A stretch of 53,690 nucleotides of DNA from Bacilli bacterium (GTDB lineage: Bacteria; Bacillota_I; Bacilli_A; RF39; UBA660): positions 1 through 53,690 of the forward strand of contig JAUNMV010000006.1 in the NCBI GenBank assembly GCA_030531695.1, in the 5' to 3' direction. A model generated the notes under the pieces. It did not search any database. It was not told the DNA's origin and worked only from the letters and a program-made list of their open reading frames with translations. The position numbers and the translations under genes are program-made. Position 1 is the stretch's first letter. Every line of letters begins with the position of its first letter. Shown here one piece after another: positions 1,972 through 23,697 of the stretch.

Positions 1972-3684
1972 ATGCAAGGTGGATTTTTATTTATTGGATC
2001 TATTATCATTATTGTACTTATCATTCTTACTATTATTGTTCAAATAATTAAAAAAGTTAGATTTAAATATTATAGAAATAAAGTAAAAGACTTAGAAATT
2101 AAACGTAATTTAGTTGCCTCTACTCCTGTTTTACTAGAATTATCTAGAGTAGAACCTATTATTAAAAATGATAGGATGGAAGAAAAATATAATAGATGGC
2201 AAGATAGATTTAATAATTTAAAAGAAAATAGACTAACTAAGATTGATGACATGCTAATAGATTTAGATTTATTTGTAGATAAGAGAGATTATAAACAATG
2301 TGGTTATAGAATGGCTAAAATAGAAATTGAAATCTACAAAGTAAGGGAAAGTGCTGAACACTTGTTAAATGAAATTAAAGATTTAAGTAAGAGCGAAGAA
2401 AAATATCGTTCTAGTGTTATTAAATTAAAAACTAAATATAGATCATTAAATGCTGAATATCAAAATAGAAAAGAAACTTATGAAGATATGCAAGATGCTA
2501 TTGAGTTACAACTTGAAAATATTGAAAGAAGATTCTTAGATTTTGAAAAAGTAATGGATTCTAGTGATTATCCTGAGGTAGTACATATTACTAAAGCTTT
2601 ATATGAGATGATTGATCATATGGAAGTTATTATTAAAGAGATGCCAGAAGTACTTGCTATGGCAAGAGTTGCTATACCTAATAGAATTAAAGAGATTAAA
2701 GAAACATATGATTCTATGGTTAATGATGGGTATCCTTTAGATTATTTAAATATTGATTATAATATCGAAGAATCTAATAAAAATATAGAATTGATTTTAG
2801 ATAAAGTTAAAGTACTTAATCTAGAAGGTTGTATGTTTGATTTAAAAACAATGTTAGATTATTATGATGCAATATTTATAGATTTTGAAAAAGAAAGATT
2901 ATCTAGAAAAGCATATGAAGAATTAACAATAGATTTTGGTAAGAGATTAGAAAAGACTAATAACTTAGTAAGAGATGTATATGCTCAAATAGAAGATATT
3001 AAGAATATGTATGATTTAGAGGATTCTGATTTACAAATTATTGATGATGTTAACAAAGTTTTAGTTGTTATTAATGATGATTATAATAAGATGCTTGCTA
3101 AAGTTGAAAGTGAATCTTCTCCTTATTCACAAGTTAATGAAGAGTTAGAAAACCTTATGGTTAGATTAACAGAGATGGAAGATTCATTCGATGTTGCACT
3201 TAAATCTTTAGGTAATTTATATGAAGATGAACAAAGAGCTAGAGAACAATTAGAAGAAATTAAAGGATTCTTAAAATTATGTAAGAGTAATATACGAGGA
3301 TTTAAATTACCTGTAGTAAATGATATATACTTTGTTCAATTAAGTGAAGCTGATGAAGCTATTAATGATGTAGTTACTGAGTTAGAAAAGACACCTATTG
3401 TTATTAAGACTTTAAATACTAGAGTTGATACTGCAAGAGATTTAGTTTTAAAACTATATAATACTACTACTGAAATGGTTAATAATGCTAAGAATGCAGA
3501 GATGGTAATGGTATATGGAAATAGATATCGTACTATTAATCCTGAGATAGATAATAGATTGGATATTGCTGAAGCTAAATTCTATAAAGGTGAGTATAAG
3601 AATGCTTTAGATATTTCATTAAGTGCTATTTCACTTGTGGATAAAAATATTGATATGAAGTTTTTTGGAAGAGATGATATTTAG
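1972..3684 (+). CDS. ezrA: Septation ring formation regulator EzrA
   Basis: 570 aa, the usual EzrA length. One N-terminal membrane segment (about residues 4-27, N-terminus outside) is followed by a long helical, spectrin-like cytoplasmic rod rich in E, K and L. The C-terminus carries the EzrA signature YGNRYRTINPEIDNRLDIAE followed by a GEYKNALDISLSAI helix. In Bacilli, EzrA binds FtsZ and PBP1, limits Z-ring formation at the poles and helps switch wall synthesis between septum and side wall. The start is fixed by the GAGGTGAG site upstream. gpsB and ponA, genes for its known partners, lie further along the window. Confidence 0.95.
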   Translation: MQGGFLFIGSIIIIVLIILTIIVQIIKKVRFKYYRNKVKDLEIKRNLVASTPVLLELSRVEPIIKNDRMEEKYNRWQDRFNNLKENRLTKIDDMLIDLDLFVDKRDYKQCGYRMAKIEIEIYKVRESAEHLLNEIKDLSKSEEKYRSSVIKLKTKYRSLNAEYQNRKETYEDMQDAIELQLENIERRFLDFEKVMDSSDYPEVVHITKALYEMIDHMEVIIKEMPEVLAMARVAIPNRIKEIKETYDSMVNDGYPLDYLNIDYNIEESNKNIELILDKVKVLNLEGCMFDLKTMLDYYDAIFIDFEKERLSRKAYEELTIDFGKRLEKTNNLVRDVYAQIEDIKNMYDLEDSDLQIIDDVNKVLVVINDDYNKMLAKVESESSPYSQVNEELENLMVRLTEMEDSFDVALKSLGNLYEDEQRAREQLEEIKGFLKLCKSNIRGFKLPVVNDIYFVQLSEADEAINDVVTELEKTPIVIKTLNTRVDTARDLVLKLYNTTTEMVNNAKNAEMVMVYGNRYRTINPEIDNRLDIAEAKFYKGEYKNALDISLSAISLVDKNIDMKFFGRDDI

Positions 3685-3746: not shown

Positions 3747-3795
3747 TATAGTTGTAATAAAATAGGATTTTTATCTAAAAGATAGGGTGAAGCTA

Positions 3796-6700
3796 ATGAA
3801 GAAAAAGATGTTTTTTATAATAGTATCAGTACTTGCAATGATTGGTGCTACTGTATATATGGGTATTAATTTACAAAAACAATCACAAAAGTCATTTACT
3901 AAAAGTGGTTATATTTTAGACTCTAATACTTCTAGTGGTAATGAGAAAGATGCTGATAAGAAAGATTCTGGTGCTACTAAGTATTATTTTGGTAAAGATA
4001 CTGCTTATAAGAATAGTGTAGATACTACAATAGAATTTAAAGATTCTAATGGTAAGAGTGTTAAAGTACCTGAAGCTTCATTTATTCACTATGATGATGA
4101 TTCTATTGGGTTACTAAAAAAGGGTGTTGTATTAAATCTTGAAGATATTAAAAATACTATTCCTATTTACTATAACCTTTATGAGGGTACTATCTTACAA
4201 TATTCTAATGGTTCTTATTTAGTAGATAACTTAGGTAAAGAACTTAGATTTACTCAATTTATTGTAAGAGTATCAGACAATAAATATTTACTTGTTAGTG
4301 ATAATATTAAATTACAATTAGATGAGAATACTTCAACTACTATTAAATCTAATTATGTTGAGATTAGTGTAGTAGAAGAAGGAATTATTAGAATAGAGAA
4401 TCAAGATGCAACTTATAATACTGTTGCAACTGAAGCTTTTATAGATTTAGGTAATGAAATGACACTAAATCTTGATAATGGTTACTTCTTTATTGGAGAA
4501 GAACCTATTGTTAATTTAAACTCTATGGTTATTGATAGTGATGATAATGTAGATATCACTCCAATAGAAGAGGTCAAGGAAGCTATTAAGAAAGCAAAAG
4601 AAGAAGAGGAAGAAGCTAAGAAAGCTGCTACCGGAGGTGGCGGCGGAGGCGGCGGAGGCGGAGGCTCTGTCGGTGATGCTGGAGAAGAAGGTAGTTCTAC
4701 AGGATTTGTTAGTACAGAGACTGAAGTTGTTGAAAACGCCTTACAATTACCTACAGCTTCATTAACAGATGTTTCTGTTAGTGCTAATAGTTTTCAAGGT
4801 ACAATAAGTATTAATGACCCAGATTCTACTATTTCTGGTCCTACTTATACATATATTATGGATAATAGTACTAGTAGAGTAGTATTTGAAAAAGAATCTG
4901 ATCAAGGTGTATATGCAATAGATGTATTTAGTGAAAACTTAACTCCTGAAACTAGTTACTTATTAGTTTCAACTATTCATTATACTAAGAATGAAATTGA
5001 TTATACTATGGATGTAGTACAACAATTATTTATAACTAGTTCAATTGGTATAAGTATTGAAAAAGATTACTATGGTATTAATGAATTATCATTTAAAGTT
5101 AAGATTGATGATTTCTCTAGAGTTAAAAGTGCTGATGTTAAGATAACTACTACTAATGGTGAAGTTATTGATTCTCAATCTATTACTGATGAAATGGCAA
5201 AGACTGAGGATGGTGTAGCAGTTCTATTTGGAGGATTATCTTCTAATACAAAATATAATATTTTAGTTAATAATATTCTTTATCAAGATACTGTAGTTGC
5301 TGAAGAATTTAATTTATCTATTTCTGCTAAAACTTTAAAGGCTAGACCTTCTTTAGGTACTCCTTCATTTGCAATAGATAAGAAAAATGCTATTTTTACT
5401 TTAAAATTAAATAATGTATCAGATCCTAATAATGGTATAGATAAATATATATATGAAGTTTATGATGCTAGAACTTATTCTAGTGGAGCTGAACCTATTG
5501 TTTCTATTGAAAAGCCTTCTTTAGGATCAGTTGATTTACGTATTGAAGATGGATTAATTGAAAGAAATATTCCATATGTATATAAAGTAGTTGCATTATT
5601 CTATGATAATGAAAAATATATAGAATATACTGCTGGTCCAAGTAATCCATTTAGAATGGATGGTGTTGAAGGTCCATCAGTATCATGGACTACTATTGAA
5701 TCTTCTGGTGGAGTAACACATGATTCTATTCATGGTAAGATTACTATTTCAGATCCAAAAGGTACAATTGATTTTACTAAAAATATAACAGTTATATTTA
5801 CAAACTCTATTGGTACAACAACTACTAGAATATTTACTTCTGGTAACTCAGTATTACCAATTGATGAGTTAAATTTAAGAAAAAATGAAACTTATACGTT
5901 CTCTGTTTATGCAACAGTAGACTTAATGGATAATAATGGTACGGTTGACTCTTACCATATTGGTAGTGTTACGGTTAATACGTTAGCTACTAATCCATTT
6001 GATGTATTCTACTATGTACAAACTGGTGTTGTTACAGAGGCATTCAGAGTTCAATGTAAATTATTAAATGTTCCAGATCATGATAATGAATATGAAGCTA
6101 CTACTTTAAATGAAATTACTTTCTTAATATATGATGGACCTAATACTTCAGGTACTCTTGTTAAGAGATTAAAGAAAGTAGATAAGAATTATCATAATCC
6201 TGATAAACAAAAGTATGATTATAATACATCTTTAAAAGGTGAATATTATGATTCAACATTCATATTAAATCCTGAGTTCTTTAATATGGATAGTAATGAT
6301 TTCTCATCTGAGTATTACACGATTCAGATTGTAGATGCTAAAGACTATACGGATTTCCAAAATGATATAGGTATAGTTAAAGATAATGATTCGGTTACTG
6401 TACAAGTTCATGGTTTCATTGATGACCCAGATCCTGATTCTAAAGAGTGGTTTAGTAATACGCTTATTAGAAATAAAGATGCAGGTGATTATGATAAATA
6501 CGATGAAAATTTAGCTGCAGAAACAATTGTTGGTATTAGAGTACATGCTAATTTCGATAACTCTAAGAAGTATGGTAAATACTTAAAATACACTGTTTGG
6601 GATTATAGTGATTCTGATGATATTATTGAACTTACTCAACATTCTAAGACAGTTTACTTTAATTCAGATGGTTCTATAGAAGATGTATTCTATTGGTTTG

Positions 6701-9219
6701 ATTATGGTACTCCTTATAATGTAGATGATAGTGAAGATTCAGTACTTCGTAGGGGTCACTCATATGTCTTCTCGTTTGTAGGTGGACTTGATATGGATAA
6801 TGATGATATTGCTGAGACAAGGTATCCTACTTCGAATGATAAAGTGTTAAAATCTAAAGAAGCAAAAATATATAAACAAGATCCGGTATTAAAAATGTAT
6901 CCATCTAAGACACAGATGACTACTGGTAATACTGGTGCTATGACGATTAAATATTTATATGAAGATGTAGATTATACATTAGAGGCTAGTAGTTTATTAG
7001 CAGTAATGTATGATTCTGCTGGTACTATTAAAGGTACAAATTCAGCTACTATTACTAGAACTAATGGTACTAATTATTCTACTGCAGTATTTGCTAATTT
7101 ACCTGTTAATAACTATATTATGATTAATGGTTATATGGAATCTATTAAATATAGAGAACCAGCTCAAGTTACTTATATTAATCAATACTTTGATGATTAT
7201 TATAATTTACCTAATATTGAGTACAGTTTAACTACAGATATTAACCGTGTAATTGTTTCAATAGATAACTATTCAAATCTTTCTGAAGCGATTAGACATA
7301 TAGCTGCATTAAAGATTACATTTACTTGTCAAGGTCATGATCCTATTGTAAAAGACTTTGTTAAGTTAAACGGTGATAATGCTGTTGTAGATATGTATGA
7401 TATCTCTGACTTCTTAGGTAATGAAGTTAATGTTAGAGTAGATGCTTATTACGATACAGATATCATTGGATGGGATCCTGAAAGTGATTATGTTTCTTTA
7501 CAAGCTGTAAAAGATATATATGGTGGAGGAGAATACTTCACATTAAGTAATAATAATTATTTAGTTGAAAGTGATATAGCTAGAGGATCTATTTATCATT
7601 TAGGTTATATTAATAGAAACTTCTTATTGTTATTACAAAATTCTGAATATTATACAGTAATTAATTCTACACCTGCTCAAGGTGGTATTAGAGCTAATGC
7701 TACATACTTAAACTTAAAGTGGTTAAGTACTTCTAAATTAAATTGTTCAACTGATGAGTCATTTGAATTTAATGAAGTAATTCCAGGAATAAGTTTGGAA
7801 AATGCTGATGGAGTATTAAATATCTCTGCTGGTATTAAGAATGTTAACTTTAGAGCATCTGTATTTGGATTTGGTGCTGCTAATATTAAAGATAACTTAA
7901 TTTATGTTCAATTATCTGAGACTGATGAAAATGCATCATTTATTACTCCAATTGGTGAAGCTCATACATTTACATTAGATGAAATTAATAATGGTGTATG
8001 TGAAATTAGAGATTTATCTCCTAAGAAATATTATGCTATGGAGTTCTATGCTTACTTAGATAAAGGTGGAGGTAATTATGAATATACTAAGTTGTATGAC
8101 TCAGATGAAAATACTAATACAAGAATTTATTATTTTAGAACTTTAGCTGGTGTTGGTATTACTGATATATCTGTTGAATATGTACCAACTAACTATAATA
8201 ATAAACATTTATTAATTTCTTATACAGTTGATAGAGTTATGGGTTATGAAAAACTTTCTTATAAAGTTGAAAGAAGAGTTTGGAATTCAGAGACTGAGCA
8301 ATATGAGTATATTGATACTGGTATTGAGATAGCTGATTCTAATCCAAATAATTATGATATTACTCAAACTGCTGATTGTTCTCCTGGTAGTGATTGGAGA
8401 TTTGGTAGTACATATAGATTAACTATTACTCCTTATACTAAATCTACTATTGGAGAAGAAGAAGTATGGGTAGCACTTGATGAAACTGTAGGTGAGTTAG
8501 TATTTGGATTACGTACATTAAAAGCTCCAACTGTTGGTGTTTCTGCATCAGTTTATGATGGAGATAATGCTGAACCTGAAGCATTAGACTTCTATGTATT
8601 ATTCTATGATCCTGACTCTGTAGTTTATCATGGTGCTGTAGGTACTTTGAATGAAAACAATGGTGTTTATACTATTAAAATAGAAGAATTAGATTCTGAT
8701 GGAGAAGTTGTTCAAGATGTTACTCCTGCAAATTATACTAATGTTGAATATCGTATAACTGGTTCAAGAAGAAGATTCTTAGTAGATGGATTAAATGATA
8801 GTACTAACTATAAATTTACGGTTTCTTATTATCAAGACGTAAATAATAGAGGTACTAGAACTCCTAAGGCATTTTCTTATATTACTAAAGCATTAAATGC
8901 AGATAGTGTTTCTGCTGGTACTGTTACGGCAGTTGCTAATGCTACAAATCCTAAAAAGATTGATTTGAACTTCATTGATTCTTATCGTATTGAGACAGTT
9001 CAAAAAATTAGATATTCAATTTATAACTCATTCGATGGTACTTCATTTGATAATGAAATTCCATTCGTAAAGAGAACTAAACAAGTAGGAGAAACAATTA
9101 TTTATTACGTACCATTACCAGAAGTGTTGACTACACAAGGTGTTTACGTAATTCAAATTCAATTGGTTGTAGATAATGTTGTTGTTGATGAACAAACAAT
9201 TGATTATAATTACATTTAG
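3796..9219 (+). CDS. Giant membrane-anchored extracellular protein with fibronectin III-like repeats (F1-like operon)
   Basis: 1807 aa and, by size, the main product of the operon. One N-terminal membrane anchor (about residues 4-24, after KKK) is followed by an extracytoplasmic domain to about residue 245. That domain resembles those of the 480-aa and 241-aa proteins of the operon. A charged EEVKEA/KKAKEEEEEA helix follows, then 11 glycines at 280-290. The rest, about 1500 residues, looks like a row of 12 or more beta-sandwich domains of the fibronectin III type, with repeated phrases such as L-x-x-x-T-x-Y-x-F/L-x-V. There is no LPxTG or other wall-sorting motif. I chose ATG 3796, after an AGGGTGA site; GTG 3787 is part of that site. 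Function unknown; inferred to be a surface fibre or stalk worked by the F1-like complex. Confidence 0.85.
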   Translation: MKKKMFFIIVSVLAMIGATVYMGINLQKQSQKSFTKSGYILDSNTSSGNEKDADKKDSGATKYYFGKDTAYKNSVDTTIEFKDSNGKSVKVPEASFIHYDDDSIGLLKKGVVLNLEDIKNTIPIYYNLYEGTILQYSNGSYLVDNLGKELRFTQFIVRVSDNKYLLVSDNIKLQLDENTSTTIKSNYVEISVVEEGIIRIENQDATYNTVATEAFIDLGNEMTLNLDNGYFFIGEEPIVNLNSMVIDSDDNVDITPIEEVKEAIKKAKEEEEEAKKAATGGGGGGGGGGGSVGDAGEEGSSTGFVSTETEVVENALQLPTASLTDVSVSANSFQGTISINDPDSTISGPTYTYIMDNSTSRVVFEKESDQGVYAIDVFSENLTPETSYLLVSTIHYTKNEIDYTMDVVQQLFITSSIGISIEKDYYGINELSFKVKIDDFSRVKSADVKITTTNGEVIDSQSITDEMAKTEDGVAVLFGGLSSNTKYNILVNNILYQDTVVAEEFNLSISAKTLKARPSLGTPSFAIDKKNAIFTLKLNNVSDPNNGIDKYIYEVYDARTYSSGAEPIVSIEKPSLGSVDLRIEDGLIERNIPYVYKVVALFYDNEKYIEYTAGPSNPFRMDGVEGPSVSWTTIESSGGVTHDSIHGKITISDPKGTIDFTKNITVIFTNSIGTTTTRIFTSGNSVLPIDELNLRKNETYTFSVYATVDLMDNNGTVDSYHIGSVTVNTLATNPFDVFYYVQTGVVTEAFRVQCKLLNVPDHDNEYEATTLNEITFLIYDGPNTSGTLVKRLKKVDKNYHNPDKQKYDYNTSLKGEYYDSTFILNPEFFNMDSNDFSSEYYTIQIVDAKDYTDFQNDIGIVKDNDSVTVQVHGFIDDPDPDSKEWFSNTLIRNKDAGDYDKYDENLAAETIVGIRVHANFDNSKKYGKYLKYTVWDYSDSDDIIELTQHSKTVYFNSDGSIEDVFYWFDYGTPYNVDDSEDSVLRRGHSYVFSFVGGLDMDNDDIAETRYPTSNDKVLKSKEAKIYKQDPVLKMYPSKTQMTTGNTGAMTIKYLYEDVDYTLEASSLLAVMYDSAGTIKGTNSATITRTNGTNYSTAVFANLPVNNYIMINGYMESIKYREPAQVTYINQYFDDYYNLPNIEYSLTTDINRVIVSIDNYSNLSEAIRHIAALKITFTCQGHDPIVKDFVKLNGDNAVVDMYDISDFLGNEVNVRVDAYYDTDIIGWDPESDYVSLQAVKDIYGGGEYFTLSNNNYLVESDIARGSIYHLGYINRNFLLLLQNSEYYTVINSTPAQGGIRANATYLNLKWLSTSKLNCSTDESFEFNEVIPGISLENADGVLNISAGIKNVNFRASVFGFGAANIKDNLIYVQLSETDENASFITPIGEAHTFTLDEINNGVCEIRDLSPKKYYAMEFYAYLDKGGGNYEYTKLYDSDENTNTRIYYFRTLAGVGITDISVEYVPTNYNNKHLLISYTVDRVMGYEKLSYKVERRVWNSETEQYEYIDTGIEIADSNPNNYDITQTADCSPGSDWRFGSTYRLTITPYTKSTIGEEEVWVALDETVGELVFGLRTLKAPTVGVSASVYDGDNAEPEALDFYVLFYDPDSVVYHGAVGTLNENNGVYTIKIEELDSDGEVVQDVTPANYTNVEYRITGSRRRFLVDGLNDSTNYKFTVSYYQDVNNRGTRTPKAFSYITKALNADSVSAGTVTAVANATNPKKIDLNFIDSYRIETVQKIRYSIYNSFDGTSFDNEIPFVKRTKQVGETIIYYVPLPEVLTTQGVYVIQIQLVVDNVVVDEQTIDYNYI
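4633..4665 (+). other. Poly-glycine linker codons in the giant surface protein
   Basis: Eleven glycine codons in a row (mixed GGA, GGT and GGC) form a GC-rich island in very AT-rich DNA. A similar 10-glycine run occurs in the next gene at 9982-10011. In both proteins it separates the shared membrane-proximal domain from the Fn3-like part. Confidence 0.9.
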
Positions 9220-9249
9220 TTATAAAATAGATAATAGGGAGAGGATAGT

Positions 9250-10952
<1,703 letters not shown>

Positions 10953-10954
10953 TT

Positions 10955-11722
10955 ATGCAACAAATACTTGAATCATTACTAGTAATAATAATACTAGTAT
11001 TTGTTGCTTTATTAATATTAGTTATGTTCTTATTCTTAAAAAAGACCGTAGCTAAGATTAATCAGCAATCAAGAGATTTCTTTATCGATAAGCTTCAGGC
11101 TTACGATCAGTTATTATTTGAGAGAGAAGAAAAATTAAAAGGGTTAAAAAGTGATATCGAAGAACAGCAAAAAATATTAGATGAAGGTAAAGGTAATAAT
11201 AATACAGATAGTTCTATTTACCTATTTGATCAACGTAATATTGATTATCAAGATGAGGCAATATTTAAGAAGATGAAAGAAGTTGATCAAAGATTTAATA
11301 TTGATACTGTAAAATTAGTTAAAAGATTTGTAAAAGAACACTTTCAAGATGATACAGTTTTGGAGTATAATAAATATAATAGTGTACGTAAAGAATTTGA
11401 TCAGAAAATGATGTTTAAACTTATATCTTTACGTCCTACAGAACAAGAAAAAGAAGTAAAAAGAATATTAGGGGATTGTGCTTATATCGTGGATGAATAT
11501 AAGAAGAAAACTAAGGCAACTACATTTGAAGTTAAAAAGTTCATTTCTTATTTTGACAAAATCATAGATAAAGTGGATCCTTACATATATGTTTACGTAG
11601 GTTCTAATAGAGAGAATTATGATTCAGTTGATGAATTTGTTAGAACTAAAGTAGATACAAACATTTTTAGAGGAATATCTATTGTATATAGAGGCAAACT
11701 TTATGATTATAGCTTGAAATAG
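10955..11722 (+). CDS. b/delta-like peripheral stalk protein of the F1-like ATPase
   Basis: 255 aa. One N-terminal membrane helix (about residues 6-30) runs into a charged coiled coil (to about 75), as in F-type b subunits. The remaining part is helical and ends in IFRGISIVYRGKLYDYSLK, which resembles the C-terminal strand of the delta subunit (family pattern GGIVVRVGDKVxDGSV). It therefore looks like b and delta joined in one chain; b-delta fusions are known in mycobacteria, in a different arrangement. In F-ATPases this stalk holds the alpha3beta3 head still. It starts 2 bases after the c-like gene. Homology is remote and the assignment rests on position, layout and the C-terminal motif. Confidence 0.65.
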   Translation: MQQILESLLVIIILVFVALLILVMFLFLKKTVAKINQQSRDFFIDKLQAYDQLLFEREEKLKGLKSDIEEQQKILDEGKGNNNTDSSIYLFDQRNIDYQDEAIFKKMKEVDQRFNIDTVKLVKRFVKEHFQDDTVLEYNKYNSVRKEFDQKMMFKLISLRPTEQEKEVKRILGDCAYIVDEYKKKTKATTFEVKKFISYFDKIIDKVDPYIYVYVGSNRENYDSVDEFVRTKVDTNIFRGISIVYRGKLYDYSLK

Positions 11723-11734
11723 GAGGTGTTACAT

Positions 11735-14700
11735 ATGGATCAAGATTTAGTAGATAACAAAGATTATGTTGATAAACAAATCGATGCGAAAATCATTGAG
11801 ATTAATAACAATGATAATATCTATGAAATTGGTACTGTTGTAAACGTAAGAGACTTCATCGTAGAAGTTACGGGTATCAACAATGTAATGTTCTACGAAA
11901 AAATAAATATTGCTAATAAAGCTATGGGTTACGTTAATAGTATTAATGAAAATTCTGTTACCGTAGCCGTTTTGCGTATTGATTCTCCTATTAATGTCGG
12001 TGATATAGTTTACTCTACAAATGTTTTATATAAAGGAAGTTATTCTAGATCTTCAATGGGTAGAGTAATTGATTTGTTTGGAAATGATAAATTATCTGGT
12101 AAGAAATACAGTGATTTAGTTGAAGTTCCTATTGAAAGAAAAACTATTCCAATTATGGATCGTGGTACTGTTAATAGACCATTACTTACTGGAATTACAG
12201 GTATTGACTTAATGTATCCAATAGGTAGAGGACAAAGACAGTTAATAATTGGTGATAAAAGAACTGGTAAAACACAAATTGGTCTTGATACTATTGTTAA
12301 TCAAAAAGGACAAAATGTTATTTGTTTCTATGTAGCAATTGGTAAGACTAAAAAAGAAGTTAAAAATATATATTCAGAGTTATTAAAGAAGGGTGCTTTA
12401 GAATATACTACAATATTTACAGCATTCAATGATGAGTTACCTCCAGTTATTTCATTAGTTCCTTATTTTGCACTTAGTGTTGCTGAGGATTATATGATGG
12501 AAGGTAAAGATGTCTTAGTTATTATCGATGACTTAAAGAGACATGCTGAAGCTTATCGTGAAATAAGTTTGATTTCTGGTAAGACTCCAGGACGTGATGC
12601 TTATCCAGCTGATATATTCTATACACATTCAAGATTACTTGAAAAAGGTTGTCAACATAAGAATGGTGGTTCTATTACAGTTCTACCTATTGTTGAAACT
12701 AAAGGTGGAGATATTACAGATTATATTTCTACAAATATTATATCTATTACAGATGGACAAATAGTTCTATCTGAAAAGGCTTTCCAAAAAGGTGAGAAGC
12801 CAGCTATTGACTATGGTCTTTCAGTTTCACGTTTAGGTGGTGCTGTTCAAAGAAAAGATATGAAGATAGTTGGTACTGCTGTAAGACGTAAGTTATTAAG
12901 CTATTTGGAAACAAGAAGCGTTTATGAATTAGTTAATATGGATGAAATGAGCTTTGAATTGAAGAACCAATTCATGGAAGGTAAAATCATCCTTGATAAT
13001 ATGATGCAATATAAGTTCTCTCCTAGAAGTCCAGAAGAGATGATGGATTTATTCGTTGGATTTGTAGAAAACGAAGAAGAATTAGAAGAGGCTACTAATC
13101 AAGTTAAACAAGAAAATAATGAAGTATTTGAAAGTCCTCAACCTGTTGCTAATGATGGAGCAATATTTGATGATACAGAGGTAATTGGTGATGAGACTGC
13201 TACAATTGATAATTCTTCTATGATGCCTGAAGCTGCTTCAGTAGAGGGAACAGATGCAGTAGTAGTTGATTATAATCAAGGAGAAGTTCCTCAAATTGAT
13301 CCTACTATTGATCCTTTATCAATGTTAAATCAAATGCCAGAAGAAATTCCTCCAGTAGTAAGTGCAGAAGAAGTTGATAGTGCTGTTGCTACTGAAGAAG
13401 TAACTGCAGAACCTGTAGCAGAAGAGGTTGCTACTGATAATCAGGTTTCATATGAAGAAGTTGATCAAGCAACATCAACAGATTATGTACCTGAAGTAGT
13501 AGGTACTGAAGAAGTAGTTGATAATAATGAGTATCAACAAGTAACTGATCAAGAAGTACAAGAAGCTACTACTACAGAATATGTTCCTGAAGTAGAAAGT
13601 ACTGAAGTTGTTGATAATAATGAATATCAACAAGTAACTGATCAAGAGGTACAAGAAGCTACTACTACAGATTATGTACCTGAAGTAGTAAGTACTGAAG
13701 AAGTTGTTGATAATAATGAGTATCAACAAGTAACTGATCAAGAGGTACAAGAAGTAACTTCAACAGAATATGTTCCTGAAGTAGAAAGTACAGAAGTTGT
13801 AGAAGTACCTACAAATTATACAGAAATAACTCAAGAGATGGTAGATGCTCAAGAGGTTCCTAATACACAAGATGAACTTACTCAAGATGTAGTAAATGGA
13901 GAAGAAGAGAGTGTTGATGATACTCCATTAGAAATTACTAACTTAGATGAAAATAATCCTTTATTTACAGATAAGGAAGAAGAAGAGTATCATACTCCAG
14001 GAGATGCTCCAGAAAATCCTGAAATAGTAGAGGGAGATACATTACAGATATATGCATTAGATGATACACCTTCTATGGTTGCAAATAATGTTCAAATAAG
14101 TGAAAATTCAGAAGAAGAATCTACTGAAGAACCAGTAGTTGAATATAGTGAAGAAGTTCCTACAGAAGAAGCTAGTGAATTTACTGAACCAGTAATTGAA
14201 GCTGAAGTACCTGTAGAAGAACCAGTAGTTGAATATAGTGAAGAGGTTCCTACAGAAGAAGCAAGTGAATATACTGAACCAGTAATTGAAACTGAAGTAC
14301 CTGTAGAAGAACCAGTAGTTGAATATAGTGAAGAGGTTCCTACAGAAGAAGTAAGTGAATATACTGAACCAGTAATTGAAGCTGAAGAACCTGTAGAAGA
14401 ACCAAATATGAATACATATCAAGTTGATGAAGATACAGTTTCTTTAGGAAATGTAGAAGGTTCTGATGATGTTTATGAAGAAACTACAGATTCTTATCAA
14501 TATGCTGATAGTAGTAATCAATTTGATCCTACTAACGTATCATTTACTCCTACTATTGGTGATGATGATCAACCTATTGAAGGTGTTGTGGATGAAGGAA
14601 ATATCTTTGATCCAACTAATATGACATTTACTCCATCAGTTACTACTGATGCTGAAGAATATAATGAAGAACCAGTTGTCTCTGAAAATACTGAGGAGAC

Positions 14701-14998
14701 TACTGAATATACTGAAGGTTCTGATGTTGAATCAGATTCATCAGAACAAGGATTTGATCCTACTGATATGACATTTACTCCATCTATAGATGAAAATAGT
14801 GAATATGAAGAACCAAATAATGAAGATTCTACATATGAAGCACCTGTAGAAGAAGAGAATGAAGAATATAGTGAAGAAACAGAAGTTAAAGATTTAGACA
14901 TATCTGATGAGAATGGATTTGATCCTACAGATTTACAAGTTAATAATTTTAATATAGAAGAAGATACTAGCGAAGAAGAAGAGGAAGAAGTGATCTAG
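11735..14998 (+). CDS. F1 ATPase alpha-like subunit with long acidic repeat tail
   Basis: 1087 aa, about twice the usual alpha length. Residues 1 to about 445 are a complete F1 alpha fold: beta-barrel start, P-loop GDKRTGKT at 173-180 (family GDRQTGKT), and the arginine finger in SVSRLGGAVQ (R366), which completes the catalytic site of beta. From about 446 the chain is a very acidic, low-complexity tail with three repeat types: about four NNEYQQVTDQEVQE-type units, three EEPVVEYSEEVPTEE units, and four FDPT motifs (three followed by FTP). Such a tail is foreign to ATP synthases; I infer a flexible scaffold or linker. ATG 11735 follows a perfect AGGAGGTG site; GTG 11726 is within it. The gamma-like gene starts 1 base after the stop. 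Confidence 0.9.
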   Translation: MDQDLVDNKDYVDKQIDAKIIEINNNDNIYEIGTVVNVRDFIVEVTGINNVMFYEKINIANKAMGYVNSINENSVTVAVLRIDSPINVGDIVYSTNVLYKGSYSRSSMGRVIDLFGNDKLSGKKYSDLVEVPIERKTIPIMDRGTVNRPLLTGITGIDLMYPIGRGQRQLIIGDKRTGKTQIGLDTIVNQKGQNVICFYVAIGKTKKEVKNIYSELLKKGALEYTTIFTAFNDELPPVISLVPYFALSVAEDYMMEGKDVLVIIDDLKRHAEAYREISLISGKTPGRDAYPADIFYTHSRLLEKGCQHKNGGSITVLPIVETKGGDITDYISTNIISITDGQIVLSEKAFQKGEKPAIDYGLSVSRLGGAVQRKDMKIVGTAVRRKLLSYLETRSVYELVNMDEMSFELKNQFMEGKIILDNMMQYKFSPRSPEEMMDLFVGFVENEEELEEATNQVKQENNEVFESPQPVANDGAIFDDTEVIGDETATIDNSSMMPEAASVEGTDAVVVDYNQGEVPQIDPTIDPLSMLNQMPEEIPPVVSAEEVDSAVATEEVTAEPVAEEVATDNQVSYEEVDQATSTDYVPEVVGTEEVVDNNEYQQVTDQEVQEATTTEYVPEVESTEVVDNNEYQQVTDQEVQEATTTDYVPEVVSTEEVVDNNEYQQVTDQEVQEVTSTEYVPEVESTEVVEVPTNYTEITQEMVDAQEVPNTQDELTQDVVNGEEESVDDTPLEITNLDENNPLFTDKEEEEYHTPGDAPENPEIVEGDTLQIYALDDTPSMVANNVQISENSEEESTEEPVVEYSEEVPTEEASEFTEPVIEAEVPVEEPVVEYSEEVPTEEASEYTEPVIETEVPVEEPVVEYSEEVPTEEVSEYTEPVIEAEEPVEEPNMNTYQVDEDTVSLGNVEGSDDVYEETTDSYQYADSSNQFDPTNVSFTPTIGDDDQPIEGVVDEGNIFDPTNMTFTPSVTTDAEEYNEEPVVSENTEETTEYTEGSDVESDSSEQGFDPTDMTFTPSIDENSEYEEPNNEDSTYEAPVEEENEEYSEETEVKDLDISDENGFDPTDLQVNNFNIEEDTSEEEEEEVI
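13470..14400 (+). repeat. Tandem in-frame repeats coding the acidic tail
   Basis: Two blocks of near-identical direct repeats. At about 13470-13800 a unit of roughly 93 bases (YVPEV...TEVVDNNEYQQVTDQEVQEATTT) recurs about three and a half times. At about 14130-14400 a 90-base unit (EEPVVEYSEEVPTEEASEYTEPVIEAEVP) occurs three times. Unit length is a multiple of 3, so copy number can change by recombination without loss of frame. Long open frames on the opposite strand here are shadows of these repeats. Confidence 0.9.
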
Positions 14999-14999
14999 T

Positions 15000-15767
15000 A
15001 TGAGTATACGTAACGTTGTAAAAGTTATGAACTTCCATTCTCTTCTTCGTGTTGATAAATCAAGAAAAAAAGCTGCTATGTACTTTGATACTGAAAGAGA
15101 ATTATTTAGAGTAATTAGAAAGATACTTTATAATAAAAATATTATATTGGATAAGAAATCTATTACTCCTAGAGCAGATGCTCCAGTACTTAATGTATAT
15201 ATTGGTAATGACTTAGGTTTTTGTGGAGATTTTAACTTCTCCATAAATAAAGAGGTCAGACTTGATAAAGAATTTAAAATAATTATTGGTAAAAAAATTC
15301 ATGCTTTTGAAAATGATGAGAGAGTTATTCTTGATATGGCAAAAGAAGAATTCTTTACTGATTTTAAAAGAGTAGAAGATGTTATATATGATGCAGTTAT
15401 ATTTAGAAAATATAGAGAAATAAATGTCGTATATAACCATTATCATAATGTCAATGATCTAGAGTTTACTAAGAAAAAGTTATTTCCATTGGATTATGGA
15501 TCAGAAGAGGGAGAGACTTTTGATGAAGACTTTGCTATGGAAACTGAACTTACTCCAATGCTTAATAACTTAATAGCTTTATATCTTTGCTACGAATTAA
15601 AAATATGTGAAATGAATAGTTATGCTGCAGAAAATGTTATTCGTCAGCAATTAACTAATCAATCTTTAAAGAAGATTGATGAAATGGAAGAGGAAAGAGC
15701 TAAAGTTACTCGTAAACTTAAGAAACAAAAAGATTTCCAAAAGATTATTGAGAATTATAGAAAATAA
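15000..15767 (+). CDS. F1 ATPase gamma-like subunit (rotor shaft)
   Basis: 255 aa, shorter than typical gamma (about 285). The N-terminus SIRNVVKVMNFHSLLRVDKS matches the family pattern SIxxxxKITxAMxMVAxxKL. A central GNDLGFCGDFNFSIN matches the family SDRGLCGGFN. A long C-terminal helix (MNSYAAENVIRQQLTNQSLKK onward) matches the SEHAARMxAMxxAxxNA helix. These helices form the shaft that turns inside alpha3beta3, so the part that makes ATPase activity rotary is present. The start ATG overlaps nothing and lies 1 base after the alpha stop, which suggests translational coupling. Confidence 0.85.
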   Translation: MSIRNVVKVMNFHSLLRVDKSRKKAAMYFDTERELFRVIRKILYNKNIILDKKSITPRADAPVLNVYIGNDLGFCGDFNFSINKEVRLDKEFKIIIGKKIHAFENDERVILDMAKEEFFTDFKRVEDVIYDAVIFRKYREINVVYNHYHNVNDLEFTKKKLFPLDYGSEEGETFDEDFAMETELTPMLNNLIALYLCYELKICEMNSYAAENVIRQQLTNQSLKKIDEMEEERAKVTRKLKKQKDFQKIIENYRK

Positions 15768-15787
15768 CTATGAAAAGGGGTAGTTAG

Positions 15788-17390
<1,603 letters not shown>

Positions 17391-17391
17391 T

Positions 17392-17943
17392 ATGACTATA
17401 AATGGAGTTATGACAATTCTATTTAAGTTCTTTATAGTCTATATATTATTTACTGGTCTATTAGAAGTTATTGGTTATTTCTTATTAGATAAGAGAAAGG
17501 GTAATGAGATCTTAGGCATAAGAGTAAATGTATTTGGATTATTAATGGAACTTGATAATATGACATTACTTGCATTATCTGTTGCTTTAATAAGATATAT
17601 ATTTGTATTGTGGTGTTTATTTGATTCTTCTAGTATTTCATTTGTACATATACTTATACTTTCTGTTTTCTCAGTTTCTTTCGGATTATTTTCTAGAAGT
17701 ATTAAGAACTTATTATTTGAAATAATAAATGCTGGAGCAATATATTTTGCATTAGTTTCTAGTAGATTACTTACTAATTACTTAGTAGAAGTAAGATATG
17801 AATGGTATGTATATGCTGGAGATATTATGTTAAAATTATTTATAATACTTTATGCAACATTCTTTCTACTTAGAAATATATTAAATTCAGTAGTTAAGAA
17901 TAAATATATAAGGAGGGAAAGAAGCGATGAAGAAGATTCTTAG
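17392..17943 (+). CDS. Unknown polytopic membrane protein of the F1-like operon
   Basis: 183 aa with about five hydrophobic segments (roughly residues 7-30, 55-78, 84-101, 106-130 and 140-162) and a basic then acidic C-terminal tail (RRERSDEEDS). It starts 1 base after the epsilon-like stop and overlaps the next gene by 17 bases, so it is firmly part of the operon. I find no subunit-a signature: the essential arginine context LxLRLFGN is absent, although an Arg does lie within the second segment (VALIRYIFVL). It could be a stator element or a channel replacement; the sequence does not decide. Confidence 0.75.
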   Translation: MTINGVMTILFKFFIVYILFTGLLEVIGYFLLDKRKGNEILGIRVNVFGLLMELDNMTLLALSVALIRYIFVLWCLFDSSSISFVHILILSVFSVSFGLFSRSIKNLLFEIINAGAIYFALVSSRLLTNYLVEVRYEWYVYAGDIMLKLFIILYATFFLLRNILNSVVKNKYIRRERSDEEDS

Positions 17944-18652
17944 ATTTATAATAACTAAAAAGAATTTAAGATGGACTCTGTTATTTGCTTTAATATTAAT
18001 TGTAATTATATTCTTTACAGTTAATAGAAATAATGATGTTATTGTTATTAAGAAGCATAGATTATATCAATATTTTGATGGTATAAAGTTTGAATTTAAG
18101 GGTAGAATTCAAATTAATAAGAAGTCTGAGGAGATTACTAAGATATCTTTTGAAGGTAATACTACAGAGTTAGATAGTTTTCCTCTATATTATGAAGATA
18201 TTCCGCAATTAATATTTCCTAAGAATATGGCAGTTGTTTATCCATTAACTGGTAAACAATATAAAGTAAATTTCTTTACTACTGCTTATTTAGATGCTGA
18301 TGAAGTATGTGTTAAAGATAAGAGATTAGTTAAGAGATTATTTGATGCAATTATTTATGATGGAAGAGATTTATATATAACTACAGAAGATTCTACAGTT
18401 ACTATTGGTAATAATGTTTATAATGTAAGTGCTTTATCTTATATTGAAGTTAATACTTTCTCTCAAACAGTTAAGATGTTTGATTATAAGAATGAGAAGT
18501 ATACTTCTGTAGATAATGTGGTTGATGAAGTAATTATTTCTAATGGTAGTTATAAAGTTAATGCTAGTTTAGATTTAATGTATTATGATAATAAATCTAA
18601 GTTGTTTATAAAAGATGTAAATAAACTTACAAATTTACCTAAGAAGGGTTAA
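17927..18652 (+). CDS. Membrane-anchored protein with the operon's shared extracytoplasmic domain
   Basis: 241 aa. A basic N-terminus (KKILRFIITKKNLR) and one membrane segment (about 15-34) lead into an extracytoplasmic domain that fills the rest. By eye its second half (SYIEVNTFSQTVKMFD...YTSVDNVV) follows the pattern seen in the giant protein (NYVEISVVEEGIIRIE...YNTVATEA). It has no poly-Gly run and no Fn3-like repeats, so it would be the bare anchor-plus-domain version. It is the last gene before a strong terminator. AGGAGGGA about 10 bases upstream fixes the ATG. Function unknown; likely a base component of the surface complex. Confidence 0.78.
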   Translation: MKKILRFIITKKNLRWTLLFALILIVIIFFTVNRNNDVIVIKKHRLYQYFDGIKFEFKGRIQINKKSEEITKISFEGNTTELDSFPLYYEDIPQLIFPKNMAVVYPLTGKQYKVNFFTTAYLDADEVCVKDKRLVKRLFDAIIYDGRDLYITTEDSTVTIGNNVYNVSALSYIEVNTFSQTVKMFDYKNEKYTSVDNVVDEVIISNGSYKVNASLDLMYYDNKSKLFIKDVNKLTNLPKKG

Positions 18653-18680
18653 GATGCTTAATGCATCTTTTTTCTTTATT
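18650..18680 (+). terminator. Intrinsic terminator at end of F1-like operon
   Basis: AAGATGC and GCATCTT form a 7-bp stem around a short TTAAT loop, followed by TTTTTC. The stem starts in the stop region of the last operon gene. Confidence 0.85.
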
Positions 18681-18703: not shown

Positions 18704-18725
18704 AAGCATGTTTGGAGGGGAATAT

Positions 18726-19910
18726 ATGGATAAGGTTATATTAATTAAATATGGTGAATTAAGTACTAAAAAGGGTAATAGAAACTTCTTTATAAATACT
18801 TTATCTAATAATGTATATAATAAATTAAGTAAATATGATATTTCTATTAGAAAAGATAGAGCTCATATGTATATAGAATTTAAGGATAGTGAATTTGATT
18901 CTATTAAGAAAGATATTGATATGGTATTTGGTATACATAAATATAATATTGCGACTATTGTACCTAATGATATAGATATGATTAAAGATACCGTATTAAA
19001 GATGGTTAAAGAAGAGAATCCTCATACTTTTAAGATAGAGACTAAGAGAAGTAATAAGAACTTTCCTAATGATAGTTTAGAAGTTAATAATATAGTAGGT
19101 GGTCATGTACTTAGAAATACTGATGGTATAAAAGTAGATGTTCATAATCCTGATATGTTAGTAAAAATAGAAATAAGAGATGAAAGTACTTATGTTTATT
19201 CTAAAGAATATAATGGTGCAGGTGGATATCCTGTAGGTACACAACCAACTGGTATGTTAATGCTTAGTGGTGGAATAGATTCTCCTGTAGCTGGATATCT
19301 TGCTATGAAAAGAGGAGTAAAATTAGAGTGTGTTTATTTTGAAGCTATTCCTCATACTTCATTAGATGCAAGAAATAAGGTTGTTGAACTTACTCGTAAG
19401 TTAAGTGCGTATCAAGGAAGTATTAATCTTCATGTAGTTAATTTTACTAAGATACAAGAAGCTATTTATAGATCATGTCGTAATGATTATTGTATAACTA
19501 TAATGAGAAGAATGATGTATAGAATAATGGAAAGAATATGTAAGACTCATAAAGGTTTAGTTATTGTTAATGGTGAGTCTATTGGGCAAGTTGCATCTCA
19601 AACATTAACTAGTATGAATGTAATTAATAGTGTTACTAATATGCCTGTAATAAGACCAGTAGCTTGTTTAGATAAATTAGAAATAATAGATATAGCTAGA
19701 CGTATAGATACATATGAGACAAGTATTTTACCTTATGAAGATTGTTGTACAGTATTTGTACCTAAACATCCTGTTATTAATCCTCGTATGGATACTGCAA
19801 TAGATGAAGAAAACAAGTTTGATTATAATACTATGATAGATGAAGCAATTGATAATATTAATACTATTAAAGTTAGTTCTAAAACTGACGAATTTAGTGA
19901 TTTATTATAA
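18726..19910 (+). CDS. thiI: tRNA 4-thiouridine synthase / thiamine sulfur-transfer protein ThiI
   Basis: 394 aa, the Bacilli form without a C-terminal rhodanese domain. An N-terminal ferredoxin-like and THUMP region (about residues 1-165) is followed by the PP-loop SGGIDSPVAGYLAMKRG (near residue 180), which adenylates the tRNA uridine at position 8. The FVPKHP segment near the end is typical. ThiI makes 4-thiouridine and can supply sulfur for the thiazole of thiamine, using a cysteine desulfurase that is not encoded here. The start at ATG 18726 is set by GGAGGGG 6 bases upstream; an in-frame ATG at 18708 would place that site inside the gene. Confidence 0.95.
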   Translation: MDKVILIKYGELSTKKGNRNFFINTLSNNVYNKLSKYDISIRKDRAHMYIEFKDSEFDSIKKDIDMVFGIHKYNIATIVPNDIDMIKDTVLKMVKEENPHTFKIETKRSNKNFPNDSLEVNNIVGGHVLRNTDGIKVDVHNPDMLVKIEIRDESTYVYSKEYNGAGGYPVGTQPTGMLMLSGGIDSPVAGYLAMKRGVKLECVYFEAIPHTSLDARNKVVELTRKLSAYQGSINLHVVNFTKIQEAIYRSCRNDYCITIMRRMMYRIMERICKTHKGLVIVNGESIGQVASQTLTSMNVINSVTNMPVIRPVACLDKLEIIDIARRIDTYETSILPYEDCCTVFVPKHPVINPRMDTAIDEENKFDYNTMIDEAIDNINTIKVSSKTDEFSDLL

Positions 19911-19964
19911 TTTATATGTATTAATTATTAATAATTTCACATTCTAATATTAGGAGGTGAAATT

Positions 19965-20180
19965 ATGGCAAGAGGAAGAAAATCTAACGCAACAAAAGCT
20001 AAGATTGCTGCTAGTAAGAAAAATTCTTCAACAAGCAATAAATCAGTAGATAATATGAAGTATGAAATTGCTAATGAATTTGGTGTAAGTTTAGGTGCTA
20101 CTGCTTCAGCAAAAGATAATGGACGTGTTGGAGGAGAAATTACTAAACGATTAGTAGAAAAAGCTAAAAATAAAAGATAG
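19965..20180 (+). CDS. Alpha/beta-type small acid-soluble spore protein (SASP)
   Basis: 71 aa. The core [20 protein letters not shown]...[13 protein letters not shown] is the alpha/beta SASP pattern. These proteins coat spore DNA and protect it from UV and heat. The EIANEFGV segment includes the site cut by the germination protease GPR. The N-terminus is longer and more basic than in Bacillus SspA/B ([19 protein letters not shown]), as in some Clostridia-like members. AGGAGGTGA gives a very strong ribosome site. A terminator follows. This is one of three sporulation genes in the window. Confidence 0.93.
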
Positions 20181-20183
20181 TTT

Positions 20184-20214
20184 AAAAGAATAGAGTAATC
20201 TATTCTTTTTGTTT
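20184..20214 (+). terminator. Intrinsic terminator after SASP gene
   Basis: Perfect 11-bp stem AAAAGAATAGA (20184-20194) and TCTATTCTTTT (20199-20209) with loop GTAA, followed by a T-rich tract. Confidence 0.92.
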
Positions 20215-20226
20215 TATATCTTTTTA

Positions 20227-20235
20227 TGTTAAAAT
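20227..20235 (+). promoter_or_regulatory. Extended -10 promoter of the 702-aa surface protein
   Basis: TG-T-TAAAAT at 20227-20235 follows a T-run, with an AGGTGA ribosome site 13 bases further on. Confidence 0.55.
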
Positions 20236-20258
20236 ATTTATTAGAATAGGTGATTGCG

Positions 20259-22367: not shown

Positions 22368-22388
22368 TTGACTTTTCCTCTTTTTTTT
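22358..22388 (+). terminator. Intrinsic terminator overlapping the stop of the 702-aa gene
   Basis: AGAGGAA (22358-22364) pairs with TTCCTCT (22375-22381) across a 10-base loop that contains the stop codon; nine T follow. Confidence 0.85.
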
Positions 22389-22422
22389 GATATTTTATGA
22401 GTATTAAAAGAGAGGGATATAT

Positions 22423-23610
22423 ATGAAATTACTTAGTATTAATGCAGGTAGTAGTTCTTTAAAGTTTAGATTATATGAGATGCCTGCTGAAGAATTAATT
22501 ATGAAAGGTACTTTTGAAAGAATAGGATTAGAAGATTCTTTTTATAGTACTCGTTTTAATGGTGAAAAGAAGGAAGTTAATACAGTAATTAAGGATCATA
22601 AGGAAGCTGTTGCATTACTTTCAAAAGTTTTAGTTGAGAGCGGAGCTGTTAAGTCTTTAGATGAAATTGAAGCTGTAGGACATAGAGTTGTTCATGGTGG
22701 AAATAAATATTCTAGAAGTGTATTAGTAACTGATAAAGTAATTGCTGAAATTGAAAGAATATCTGATTTAGCACCTCTTCATAATCCTGGTGCTTTAAAA
22801 GGAATTTATGCTTTTAAAGAAAGTATTCCTAATGCTAAAATGGTTACTTGTTTTGATACTGCTTTTCATCAAACTATGGATGAAGCTACATATTTATATG
22901 CTATTCCTTATGAATGGTATGTTAAATATGACGTTAGAAAATACGGTTTTCATGGTTTAAGTCATAAGTTTATTACTGAAGAGATGACTTCTAAATTAGG
23001 TAAGAAACCAAACCTAATAATTTGTCATATTGGTAATGGTGGTAGTGTTACTGCTGTTAAAGAAGGTAAGTGTATTGATACTTCTATGGGATTTACTCCT
23101 AATGCTGGTATTATGATGGGTACTCGTTCTGGAGATATTGATTATTCTATTATCAACTATATTATGAAAAAAGAAGAAAGAAATCTTGAATGGGTAGAGA
23201 ATAGATTAAATAAGAATAGTGGTCTAGAAGGAATTGCTGGTATGAGTGATTTACGTGATATAGATAGAGCTTATGAAGCTAGAGAAGGTAAAGTTATACT
23301 TGCAATGGATATGTATACTAATAGAATAGTAGATTATATTGCTAGATATTATGTTAAATTAAGAGGTAAAGTTGATGCTATAGTATTTACTGCTGGAGGA
23401 GGAGAAAACGATTCTATTATCCGTGGTGATGTTATTAAGAAACTAGAAGCATTAGATGTTAAATTAGATGAAGAAGCTAATAATAAGACTATTGTTAGAA
23501 AAGGAGTAGAAGGTATTATTTCTACTAGTGATTCTAAGATACCAGTATATGTTTTAGCTACTGATGAAGAATTAATGATAGCAAGAGATACATATGAATT
23601 AACAAAATAA
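22423..23610 (+). CDS. ackA: Acetate kinase (first tandem copy)
   Basis: 395 aa, normal AckA length. It makes ATP from acetyl phosphate and ADP, giving acetate. Family signatures are all present: NAGSSSLKFRL at the start, GHRVVHGG, CFDTAFH, GFHGLSHK, IGNGGSVTAV, MGTRSGDID and the late ATDEELMIARDT glutamate. One variation is FTAGGGEND where most have FTAGIGENS (as the second copy does, nearly). The two copies, about 65 bases apart, each with its own terminator or promoter space, are divergent paralogues. No phosphotransacetylase gene lies nearby. Confidence 0.95.
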   Translation: MKLLSINAGSSSLKFRLYEMPAEELIMKGTFERIGLEDSFYSTRFNGEKKEVNTVIKDHKEAVALLSKVLVESGAVKSLDEIEAVGHRVVHGGNKYSRSVLVTDKVIAEIERISDLAPLHNPGALKGIYAFKESIPNAKMVTCFDTAFHQTMDEATYLYAIPYEWYVKYDVRKYGFHGLSHKFITEEMTSKLGKKPNLIICHIGNGGSVTAVKEGKCIDTSMGFTPNAGIMMGTRSGDIDYSIINYIMKKEERNLEWVENRLNKNSGLEGIAGMSDLRDIDRAYEAREGKVILAMDMYTNRIVDYIARYYVKLRGKVDAIVFTAGGGENDSIIRGDVIKKLEALDVKLDEEANNKTIVRKGVEGIISTSDSKIPVYVLATDEELMIARDTYELTK

Positions 23611-23640
23611 GAATTATCTTTAGATAGTTCTTTTTTCTTT
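23609..23640 (+). terminator. Intrinsic terminator between the two ackA copies
   Basis: Ten-bp stem with one G-T pair (23609-23618 with 23623-23632), loop TTTA, then TTTTCTTTTA. Confidence 0.85.
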
Positions 23641-23697
23641 TATTATTAGTTTTGATGATGTATAATATATGTAGATTTGAAAAGAAGGAGACAATTT

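Follow-up and report, generated by a model that had tools for sequence, protein, structure and literature searches.

In this study we analyzed a stretch of 53,690 nucleotides from a Bacilli bacterium (contig JAUNMV010000006.1 of assembly GCA_030531695.1, hereafter the window), in which ten adjacent genes encode an F1-like rotary ATPase together with surface proteins. An earlier note on this DNA had described ten tightly packed genes, and ten open reading frames (ORFs) were confirmed at positions 3796-18652 with the same ends, all on the forward strand and spaced by -32 to +30 bases. The first frame is counted from the ATG at 3796, and the ORF list begins it at the GTG at 3787. Three of the products are single-pass surface proteins, here named big, fn480 and s241, and a short membrane protein is named m183 (Table 1). 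The source genome has a size of 1.46 Mb, with a completeness of 80.85% and a contamination of 5.57%.

Table 1. Features of the ten-gene locus in the window (aa, amino acids).
Feature	Position	Strand	Characteristics
big, surface protein of 1807 aa	3796..9219	+	Single membrane helix at the N terminus, then a membrane-proximal domain, a linker rich in Gly and a long C-terminal part that is at best Fn3-like
fn480, surface protein of 480 aa	9250..10692	+	Single N-terminal helix; the membrane-proximal domain is related to those of big and s241; weak Fn3
c-type proteolipid, 81 aa	10707..10952	+	Two helices, RNPE loop kept, Thr60 instead of the ion-binding acid
b-delta-like stalk, 255 aa	10955..11722	+	One N-terminal helix; C-terminal part related to the C-terminal region of AtpH (delta)
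alpha-like subunit	11735..14998	+	Arg366 kept; acidic repetitive C-terminal tail of about 650 residues
gamma-like subunit	15000..15767	+	PF00231, E 3.1e-22
beta-like catalytic subunit	15791..17161	+	Lys154 and Glu180 kept
epsilon N-terminal beta-sandwich domain only (predicted fold), 86 aa	17130..17390	+	C-terminal helices of ordinary epsilon missing
m183, membrane protein of 183 aa	17392..17943	+	Four to five helices; no profile similarity to subunit a
s241, single-pass protein of 241 aa	17927..18652	+	All-beta outer domain (predicted fold, from the homologous part of L144)
Terminator-like hairpin	18651..18669	+	Directly after gene 10

The head of the ATPase is well recognized by Pfam (alpha E 5.7e-73, beta E 1.3e-67, and gamma as in Table 1), and the catalytic residues reported as intact in the earlier note, K154 and E180 of beta and R366 of alpha, were verified at these positions. 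Among the F1-like sequences longer than 380 aa, to which the count was confined, the Walker A motif of beta is present in 100 of 100 rows, the Glu of the beta GER motif in 100 of 100, and the Arg of alpha in 108 of 108. These counts leave out L014, L018, L019, L025, L047 and L048, which are canonical or V-type; three V-type rows in the beta set were listed apart, and the canonical class of this count held five Type 3-like loci. A DELSEED-like pattern missed 12 beta rows. The alpha subunit ends in a strongly acidic tail (201 Asp or Glu versus 3 Lys or Arg among the last 648 residues translated), which is restricted to some lineages and therefore not essential. Tandem repeats of 96 and 90 bases are found in the tail (window 13478-13796 and 14126-14404); congeners and L015 (1416 aa) likewise have longer alpha ORFs, and many homologues are without them.

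The 86-aa gene has no Pfam match and gave 0.2% in a profile comparison with AtpC. Its predicted structure (pLDDT, the predicted local distance difference test score, 93.9) matches the N-terminal domain of F1 epsilon both by Foldseek (E 2.6e-5, probability 1) and by VIA (Z about 12 over 80 residues, root mean square deviation about 2), and by this predicted fold the gene is the epsilon N-terminal domain. The C-terminal helices of an ordinary epsilon are one brake on F1 hydrolysis, which their absence here would remove. The C-terminal stretch of the 255-aa protein is similar to AtpH (E 1.4e-5), with an hhalign probability of 80% that, like all hhalign probabilities in this study, comes from a single profile pair without database calibration. 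The b part, a single helix in the right place, gave no match to AtpF (2.5%), and in layout the protein appears as a b-delta-like fusion.

The 81-aa protein matches ATP-synt_C with E 1.3e-8, which agrees with the c-ring-like proteolipid of the earlier note as to its family; it is not an ordinary proteolipid, its ion site being missing. In an alignment with solved c subunits, Thr60 takes the position of the canonical Glu. This column holds Thr in 37, Ser in 29, Ala in 21, Met in 2 and Phe in 1 of the 90 F1-like c rows, and Glu in 9 of 9 canonical c proteins. The second helix as a whole is without an acid in 88 of the 90 rows and in 17 of 17 further rows read from DNA (one of them, L082, ends one residue past the ion site), that is in 105 of 107, versus 0 of the 9 canonical proteins. 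The 107 rows represent 71 distinct core sequences, one of which has an acid, and the scan patterns used to find the named loci do not cover the ion site. The R-N-P-E loop is invariant in the 17-row c alignment; in the c subunit of F-ATPases this loop meets gamma and epsilon. As the loop is invariant while the ion site is gone, the contact of the ring with the rotor foot is kept and the ion site is lost. Kineothrix alysoides possesses both kinds of c, an ordinary one with Glu and an F1-like one with no acid at that site. Judged from sequence, the c protein of this system, newly described here, keeps the rotor-foot loop but has lost the ion-binding acid.

No match to subunit a (PF00119) was found in the operon or elsewhere in the source genome, which is 80.85% complete, by a search that was positive in 9 of 14 control genomes. 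The earlier note was thus right that the operon has no subunit a, and an atpB elsewhere in the genome, the outcome it had named as contrary to its interpretation, was looked for by the same search and not found. An ordinary atp operon elsewhere, which it had proposed to check, was not seen either: the sole PF00006 matches of the genome are this alpha/beta pair, and the sole PF00137 match is this c. We considered m183 as a hidden subunit a and ruled it out, with 0.2% in comparison to AtpB and no charged column conserved at 80%. The homologue L144, in which m183 is fused to s241, was modelled with pLDDT 85.6; the model found no Foldseek match in PDB at E <=0.001 and a best VIA Z of 5.6 over 89 residues, a null result that shows neither novelty nor absence of relatives.

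The distribution of the genes was examined in 385 genomes of the order. PF00006 matched at E 1e-20 or better in 33 of them, and 352 were without such a match. Five of the 33 carry canonical F1 genes and all five have PF00119; the other 28 carry F1-like genes, and together with three more F1-like genomes from the genus of the window, PF00119 is found in 0 of 31. The F1-like genes were seen at loci of all 28, some on short contigs, with G254 and G410 giving the shortest views. Each of the 31 genomes has exactly one PF00137 match and no other PF00006 match over cut-off. A canonical-like beta at a contig end in G003 (L014) was omitted as probable contamination. G037, from another family of the class, possesses a diverged version with neighbors of 800, at least 1111 and at least 1883 aa, and the profiles did not recognize the genes that stand where b-delta, epsilon and m183 would be expected in the diverged locus L017. 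An atpB in G037 was set aside as contamination, since the frames on its contig L049 (C25) look mitochondrial by eye. These frames are of cox, cob and nad type with TGA as Trp, resembling animal mitochondrial DNA, and the contig is a probable contaminant.

These counts bear on whether the machine could nevertheless work as a rotary ion pump or as an ATP synthase, either carrying ions at another site or using m183 as subunit a. In the 31 F1-like genomes no other PF00006 match over cut-off and no PF00119 match was found, so nothing else of F type could pump ions in them. The machine has retained the c fold and F1, the Pfam cut-offs are passed by alpha, beta, gamma and c, and one species has an Asp beside the usual site. 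However, the helix-2 acid is absent from nearly all c rows, m183 has neither a conserved charged column nor AtpB profile similarity, Kineothrix also keeps an ordinary synthase, and the 352 genomes of the order without a PF00006 match manage with none. We regard ion pumping as very unlikely.

The c alignment was also used to scan named genomes, which gave 211 relatives, and the best 80 of these were retained. The records are mostly metagenome assemblies, and loci of separate collections overlap (e.g. L012 and L070), so that locus counts are not species counts. The titles in the best 80 include Bacilli, Tenericutes, Erysipelotrichaceae, Lachnospiraceae, Clostridia, Oscillospiraceae and Family XIII, and one strain, Kineothrix alysoides KNHs209, which has an ordinary ATP synthase alongside the F1-like genes and whose F1-like beta is 68% identical to that of the window. 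Counting recognized genes only, and with many loci cut by contig ends, c-bdelta-alpha are consecutive in 74 of these 80 loci and fn480 (or fn480-s241) stands directly before c in 69. The order alpha-gamma-beta was found in 45, alpha-beta in 25, and neither or part of them in 10. The exact ten-gene order of the window occurs in 32 loci, and a second exact order, with s241 before c and gamma last, in 7. Gene order is conserved across Bacilli and Clostridia. Subunit a is also present in 18 of the 37 genomes tested (38 of the 80 loci), which shows that ordinary synthases and the F1-like operon are compatible within one genome. Among the matches listed, there are at least three F1-like pairs in G467 and at least two each in G481 and G483, which suggests different surface outputs, and G485 has one F1-like pair and a further alpha. 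In G481 and G482 (L105 and L107), c has remained beside the surface genes, and F1-like alpha and beta lie on other contigs.

A decaying ATP synthase operon with accidental neighbors would fit the loss of subunit a and of the ion site as well as the patchy distribution. This is contradicted by the conservation described above, namely the invariant catalytic residues, the gene order shared from Bacilli to Clostridia and the identity between the beta subunits of the window and Kineothrix. The surface genes, moreover, are retained together with the motor at separate loci (below), and we practically dismiss decay as an explanation.

The fn480 profile gave 29 matches in the 385 genomes of the order: all 28 F1-like genomes and G180, thus 1 of the 357 others, and 0 of the 5 genomes with canonical F1 (Fisher p about 1e-41, uncorrected for relatedness). 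Half of the F1-like genomes, 14 of 28, had supplied rows of the query alignment; among those supplying no row, fn480 was found in 14 of 14 (p about 2e-24, likewise uncorrected). Where the F1-like contig has no fn480, the gene turned up on a different contig, in 10 of 10 such genomes. Eight of these (G063, G136, G194, G332, G501, G502, G701 and G702) have clearly separate loci by their flanks, and a contig break in the assembly could explain the separation in G023 and G703. Fourteen fn480 loci were read, in the separate-contig genomes plus G012, G180, G254 and G209, and big-fn480-s241 stand together in 11 of them. The exceptions are L173, with an extra ORF between fn480 and s241, L177, with fn480-s241 on a short contig, and L180 (G012), where big and fn480 are together and s241 remains with the motor. 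In the family of Kineothrix, fn480 was found in 3 of 200 genomes, Kineothrix included, by a search alignment that came from the order of the window only and may miss divergent copies.

The membrane part and a surface domain are also joined by gene fusion: in 8 loci with titles of Lachnospiraceae, Clostridiales or Clostridia, one protein of 400-407 aa comprises both m183 and s241 (hhalign 97% and 100%). Across all sets of loci, a further giant protein, also single-pass, comes after s241 in 41. The membrane-proximal parts of big, fn480, s241 and this giant protein are related, with pairwise hhalign probabilities of 82-97%, the likeness of big to the giant protein covering a 40-column N-terminal stretch only. 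The earlier note had called big and fn480 Fn3-like anchored proteins; the membrane anchoring is borne out, and the Fn3 label is weak, with Pfam E of 0.17 and 0.019, below cut-off. Examples of the giant protein are L160:2-10852, L094:1691-8230 and L037:13278-19499, the last with a GLUG motif; the giant protein of Kineothrix has 3617 aa and is cut by the locus end, and the big protein of Kineothrix has collagen-like repeats and an immunoglobulin-like domain. Motor and surface proteins are inherited together, as their co-occurrence across genomes, the separate loci retained together and the gene fusion show, which supports the linkage proposed in the earlier note.

Such a linkage would also be expected of an ATP-powered machine for assembly, export or locking, in which head and ring insert, extrude, stretch or recycle the giant surface proteins and nothing rotates continuously outside. 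The surface proteins are very long, fn480 accompanies the motor in every F1-like genome of the order sample, no moving outer part was seen, and the export ATPases of FliI type, which gave hits in the NCBIfam comparison, are F1 relatives. The operon has retained gamma, the epsilon N-terminal domain, the c loop and the b-delta-like stalk, however, none of which an export ATPase like FliI would need. With their ordinary N-terminal membrane helices, the surface proteins should be adequately served by the general secretion route. We consider this explanation unlikely, with some chance of being right.

The system was further compared with known rotary ATPases. With the F1Fo ATP synthase it shares alpha, beta, gamma, the epsilon N-terminal domain, a c-type fold with an RNPE-like loop, an intact Walker A, Glu and Arg finger, and probably the delta-like C-terminal part of the stalk. 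It differs in that no subunit a was found, c is without the acid, the b and delta parts are in one protein, the epsilon C-terminal helices are missing and surface proteins are included in the operon. The NCBIfam F-ATPase scores are all below cut-off (alpha 391 versus 484, beta 458.7 versus 462.9, gamma 52 versus 194, c 26 versus 44), with the broader Pfam cut-offs reached. The scores are also far below the cut-offs of NCBIfam alt_F1F0, which we take to be the N-ATPase type. The N-ATPase, in the accessible text of PMC11738941, shares the c-bdelta-alpha-gamma adjacency and, by the layout of the stalk protein, the b-delta fusion with the present operon, but it has a subunit a, an ion-binding c and beta-epsilon-X-X genes in front, so that the gene order differs too. 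The ProAD survey reported in the same text required subunit a, mentions 20 F/N 'non-catalytic' c/K subunits without Glu or Asp and, as far as that text goes, without a described system, and lists f__UBA660 among the groups that appear to lack rotary ATPases (PMC11738941).

A parallel is offered by the mycoplasma motors of Type 2 (G1-ATPase, gliding) and Type 3 (MIB-MIP), which likewise have an F1-like head without subunit a and are proposed or shown to work with surface proteins. Their published gene lists, in the portions accessible, name no c; they contain a 12-helix protein, a small cytoplasmic protein 2 and a large protein 5 (PMC3369863, PMC12994834), whereas the present system has c, a membrane-anchored b-delta-like protein, m183, s241 and the other surface proteins. 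Both these lists and our profile comparisons are in line with the earlier note, which had remarked on the absence of c and the different gene content in the mycoplasma systems. None of the ten genes encodes a membrane protein of the 12-helix size. The profile of the Type 3-like 12-helix protein matched neither m183 nor c; b-delta matched neither protein 2 (0.8%) nor protein 5, s241 and fn480 did not match protein 5, and epsilon did not match the Type 3-like epsilon, the Type 3-like loci being assigned by layout. Gamma and the Type 3-like gamma were related at an hhalign probability of 86%. The scores fell below the NCBIfam cut-offs of MSC_0618/0619 and MMOB1660/1670, respectively, for alpha (378 versus 600, 299 versus 520) as well as for beta (397 versus 570, 363 versus 850).

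A tree of 64 taxa and 861 columns, unrooted, with long branches and no outgroup, was obtained with L098 and L108 left out as alpha or beta is missing. Support is 100 for each of three groups, the F1-like one (L017 excluded), the canonical one and the Type 3-like one. The Type 3-like group and the diverged L017 are placed between the two large groups, and a split with a support of 95 separates the Type 3-like and F1-like sequences from L017 and the canonical ones. A divergent member of the mycoplasma Type 2/Type 3 F1-like X0 motors would agree with this placement, with the likeness of the gammas, with the logic of head and surface partners shared by both, and with the proposal, in the accessible text of PMC11864180, that GliD of Type 2 derives from a b-delta fusion. 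The long branches and the missing outgroup weaken the placement, the NCBIfam cut-offs are missed, epsilon, the 12-helix protein and proteins 2 and 5 are unmatched by the parts tried, and the published lists name no c; direct membership appears distinctly improbable to us. On the features tested, the system falls outside the F-ATPases, the N-ATPases and the mycoplasma Type 2/3 motors.

Our literature search, with subscription papers and preprints outside its coverage, found no description of this system, and we know of no wet experiment on it. New here are the loss of the ion site, the spread over Bacilli and Clostridia, the co-occurrence of fn480 and the fusion of m183 to a surface domain.

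Taken together, we think it fairly probable that the operon encodes an ATP-hydrolysing rotary motor derived from the F type, which no longer moves ions, has an ion-dead ring and acts on surface fibres. The parts, the catalytic residues, the loss of the ion site, the lack of subunit a and the co-inherited surface proteins are read from sequence or predicted fold; rotation, torque transfer and purpose are what we infer. ATP hydrolysis would turn gamma-epsilon and the ion-dead c ring in the membrane, and the b-delta stalk would hold the head still against m183, these together serving as the stator, with a partner domain of s241 type outside. The relative motion between the ring and m183/s241 would reach the giant surface proteins through their membrane-proximal domains, and their fibres might be swung, wound or pulled at the cell wall or outside it. 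Candidate tasks of the fibres are surface movement, stirring, adhesion under tension and the capture of prey or polymers. The system would work like the Type 2/3 motors in the manner proposed for these in the accessible texts of PMC12994834 and PMC11864180. The ATP-driven motor joined to surface proteins instead of an ion channel, as put forward in the earlier note, is thus upheld in its F1 residues, its lack of subunit a and its surface linkage, and its motion stays conjectural.

Several points weigh against such a motor. Expression, assembly, ATPase activity, rotation and surface movement are all presumed from sequence and fold only, and a rotating part would somehow have to act through a Gram-positive wall. 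The c ring is assumed from homology, and its formation without the acid is hypothetical; an Asp occurs one residue before the canonical site in L011:7817-8062 and L075:7817-8062, which look like one species. The fused m183-s241 profile has no similarity to the further giant protein (0.3%), and the hhalign values lack calibration, as stated above. The congener G002, 95% complete, has no PF00006 match, and the system is therefore dispensable. L105 and L107 have big-fn480-c-s241-giant without alpha/beta alongside, and G180 (L181) has big-fn480-s241 but no PF00006 or PF00137 match; this lone surface module may reflect an assembly gap or surface proteins used without the motor.

If the motor exists, an F1-like machine with a different membrane part would be present in Bacilli and Clostridia, and the ion-dead c ring would serve as a natural experiment to tell what a c ring is required for. 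We tentatively entertain, at somewhat less confidence than the motor as such, that it is an F-type motor which has kept its c ring as a purely mechanical membrane shaft with no ion path, driving giant extracellular fibres in walled gut bacteria, and that it may be related to the ancestral stock of the mycoplasma motors for gliding and antibody cleavage. Kineothrix alysoides, whose record is titled as a strain, carries the system and might be amenable to knock-outs and purification. Should the family of the window be f__UBA660, the system may also bear on its listing among groups lacking rotary ATPases in the accessible text of PMC11738941.

The hairpin after the last gene is weak evidence of a terminator by itself, as four terminator-like hairpins were found in the region versus 2.7 expected by chance. 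The upstream neighbor (window 1972-3684) resembles by eye what we take to be ezrA. Downstream, the genes at window 18708-24882 presumably encode, by the same kind of resemblance, thiI, a small acid-soluble spore protein, a 705-aa surface protein and two tandem acetate kinases.

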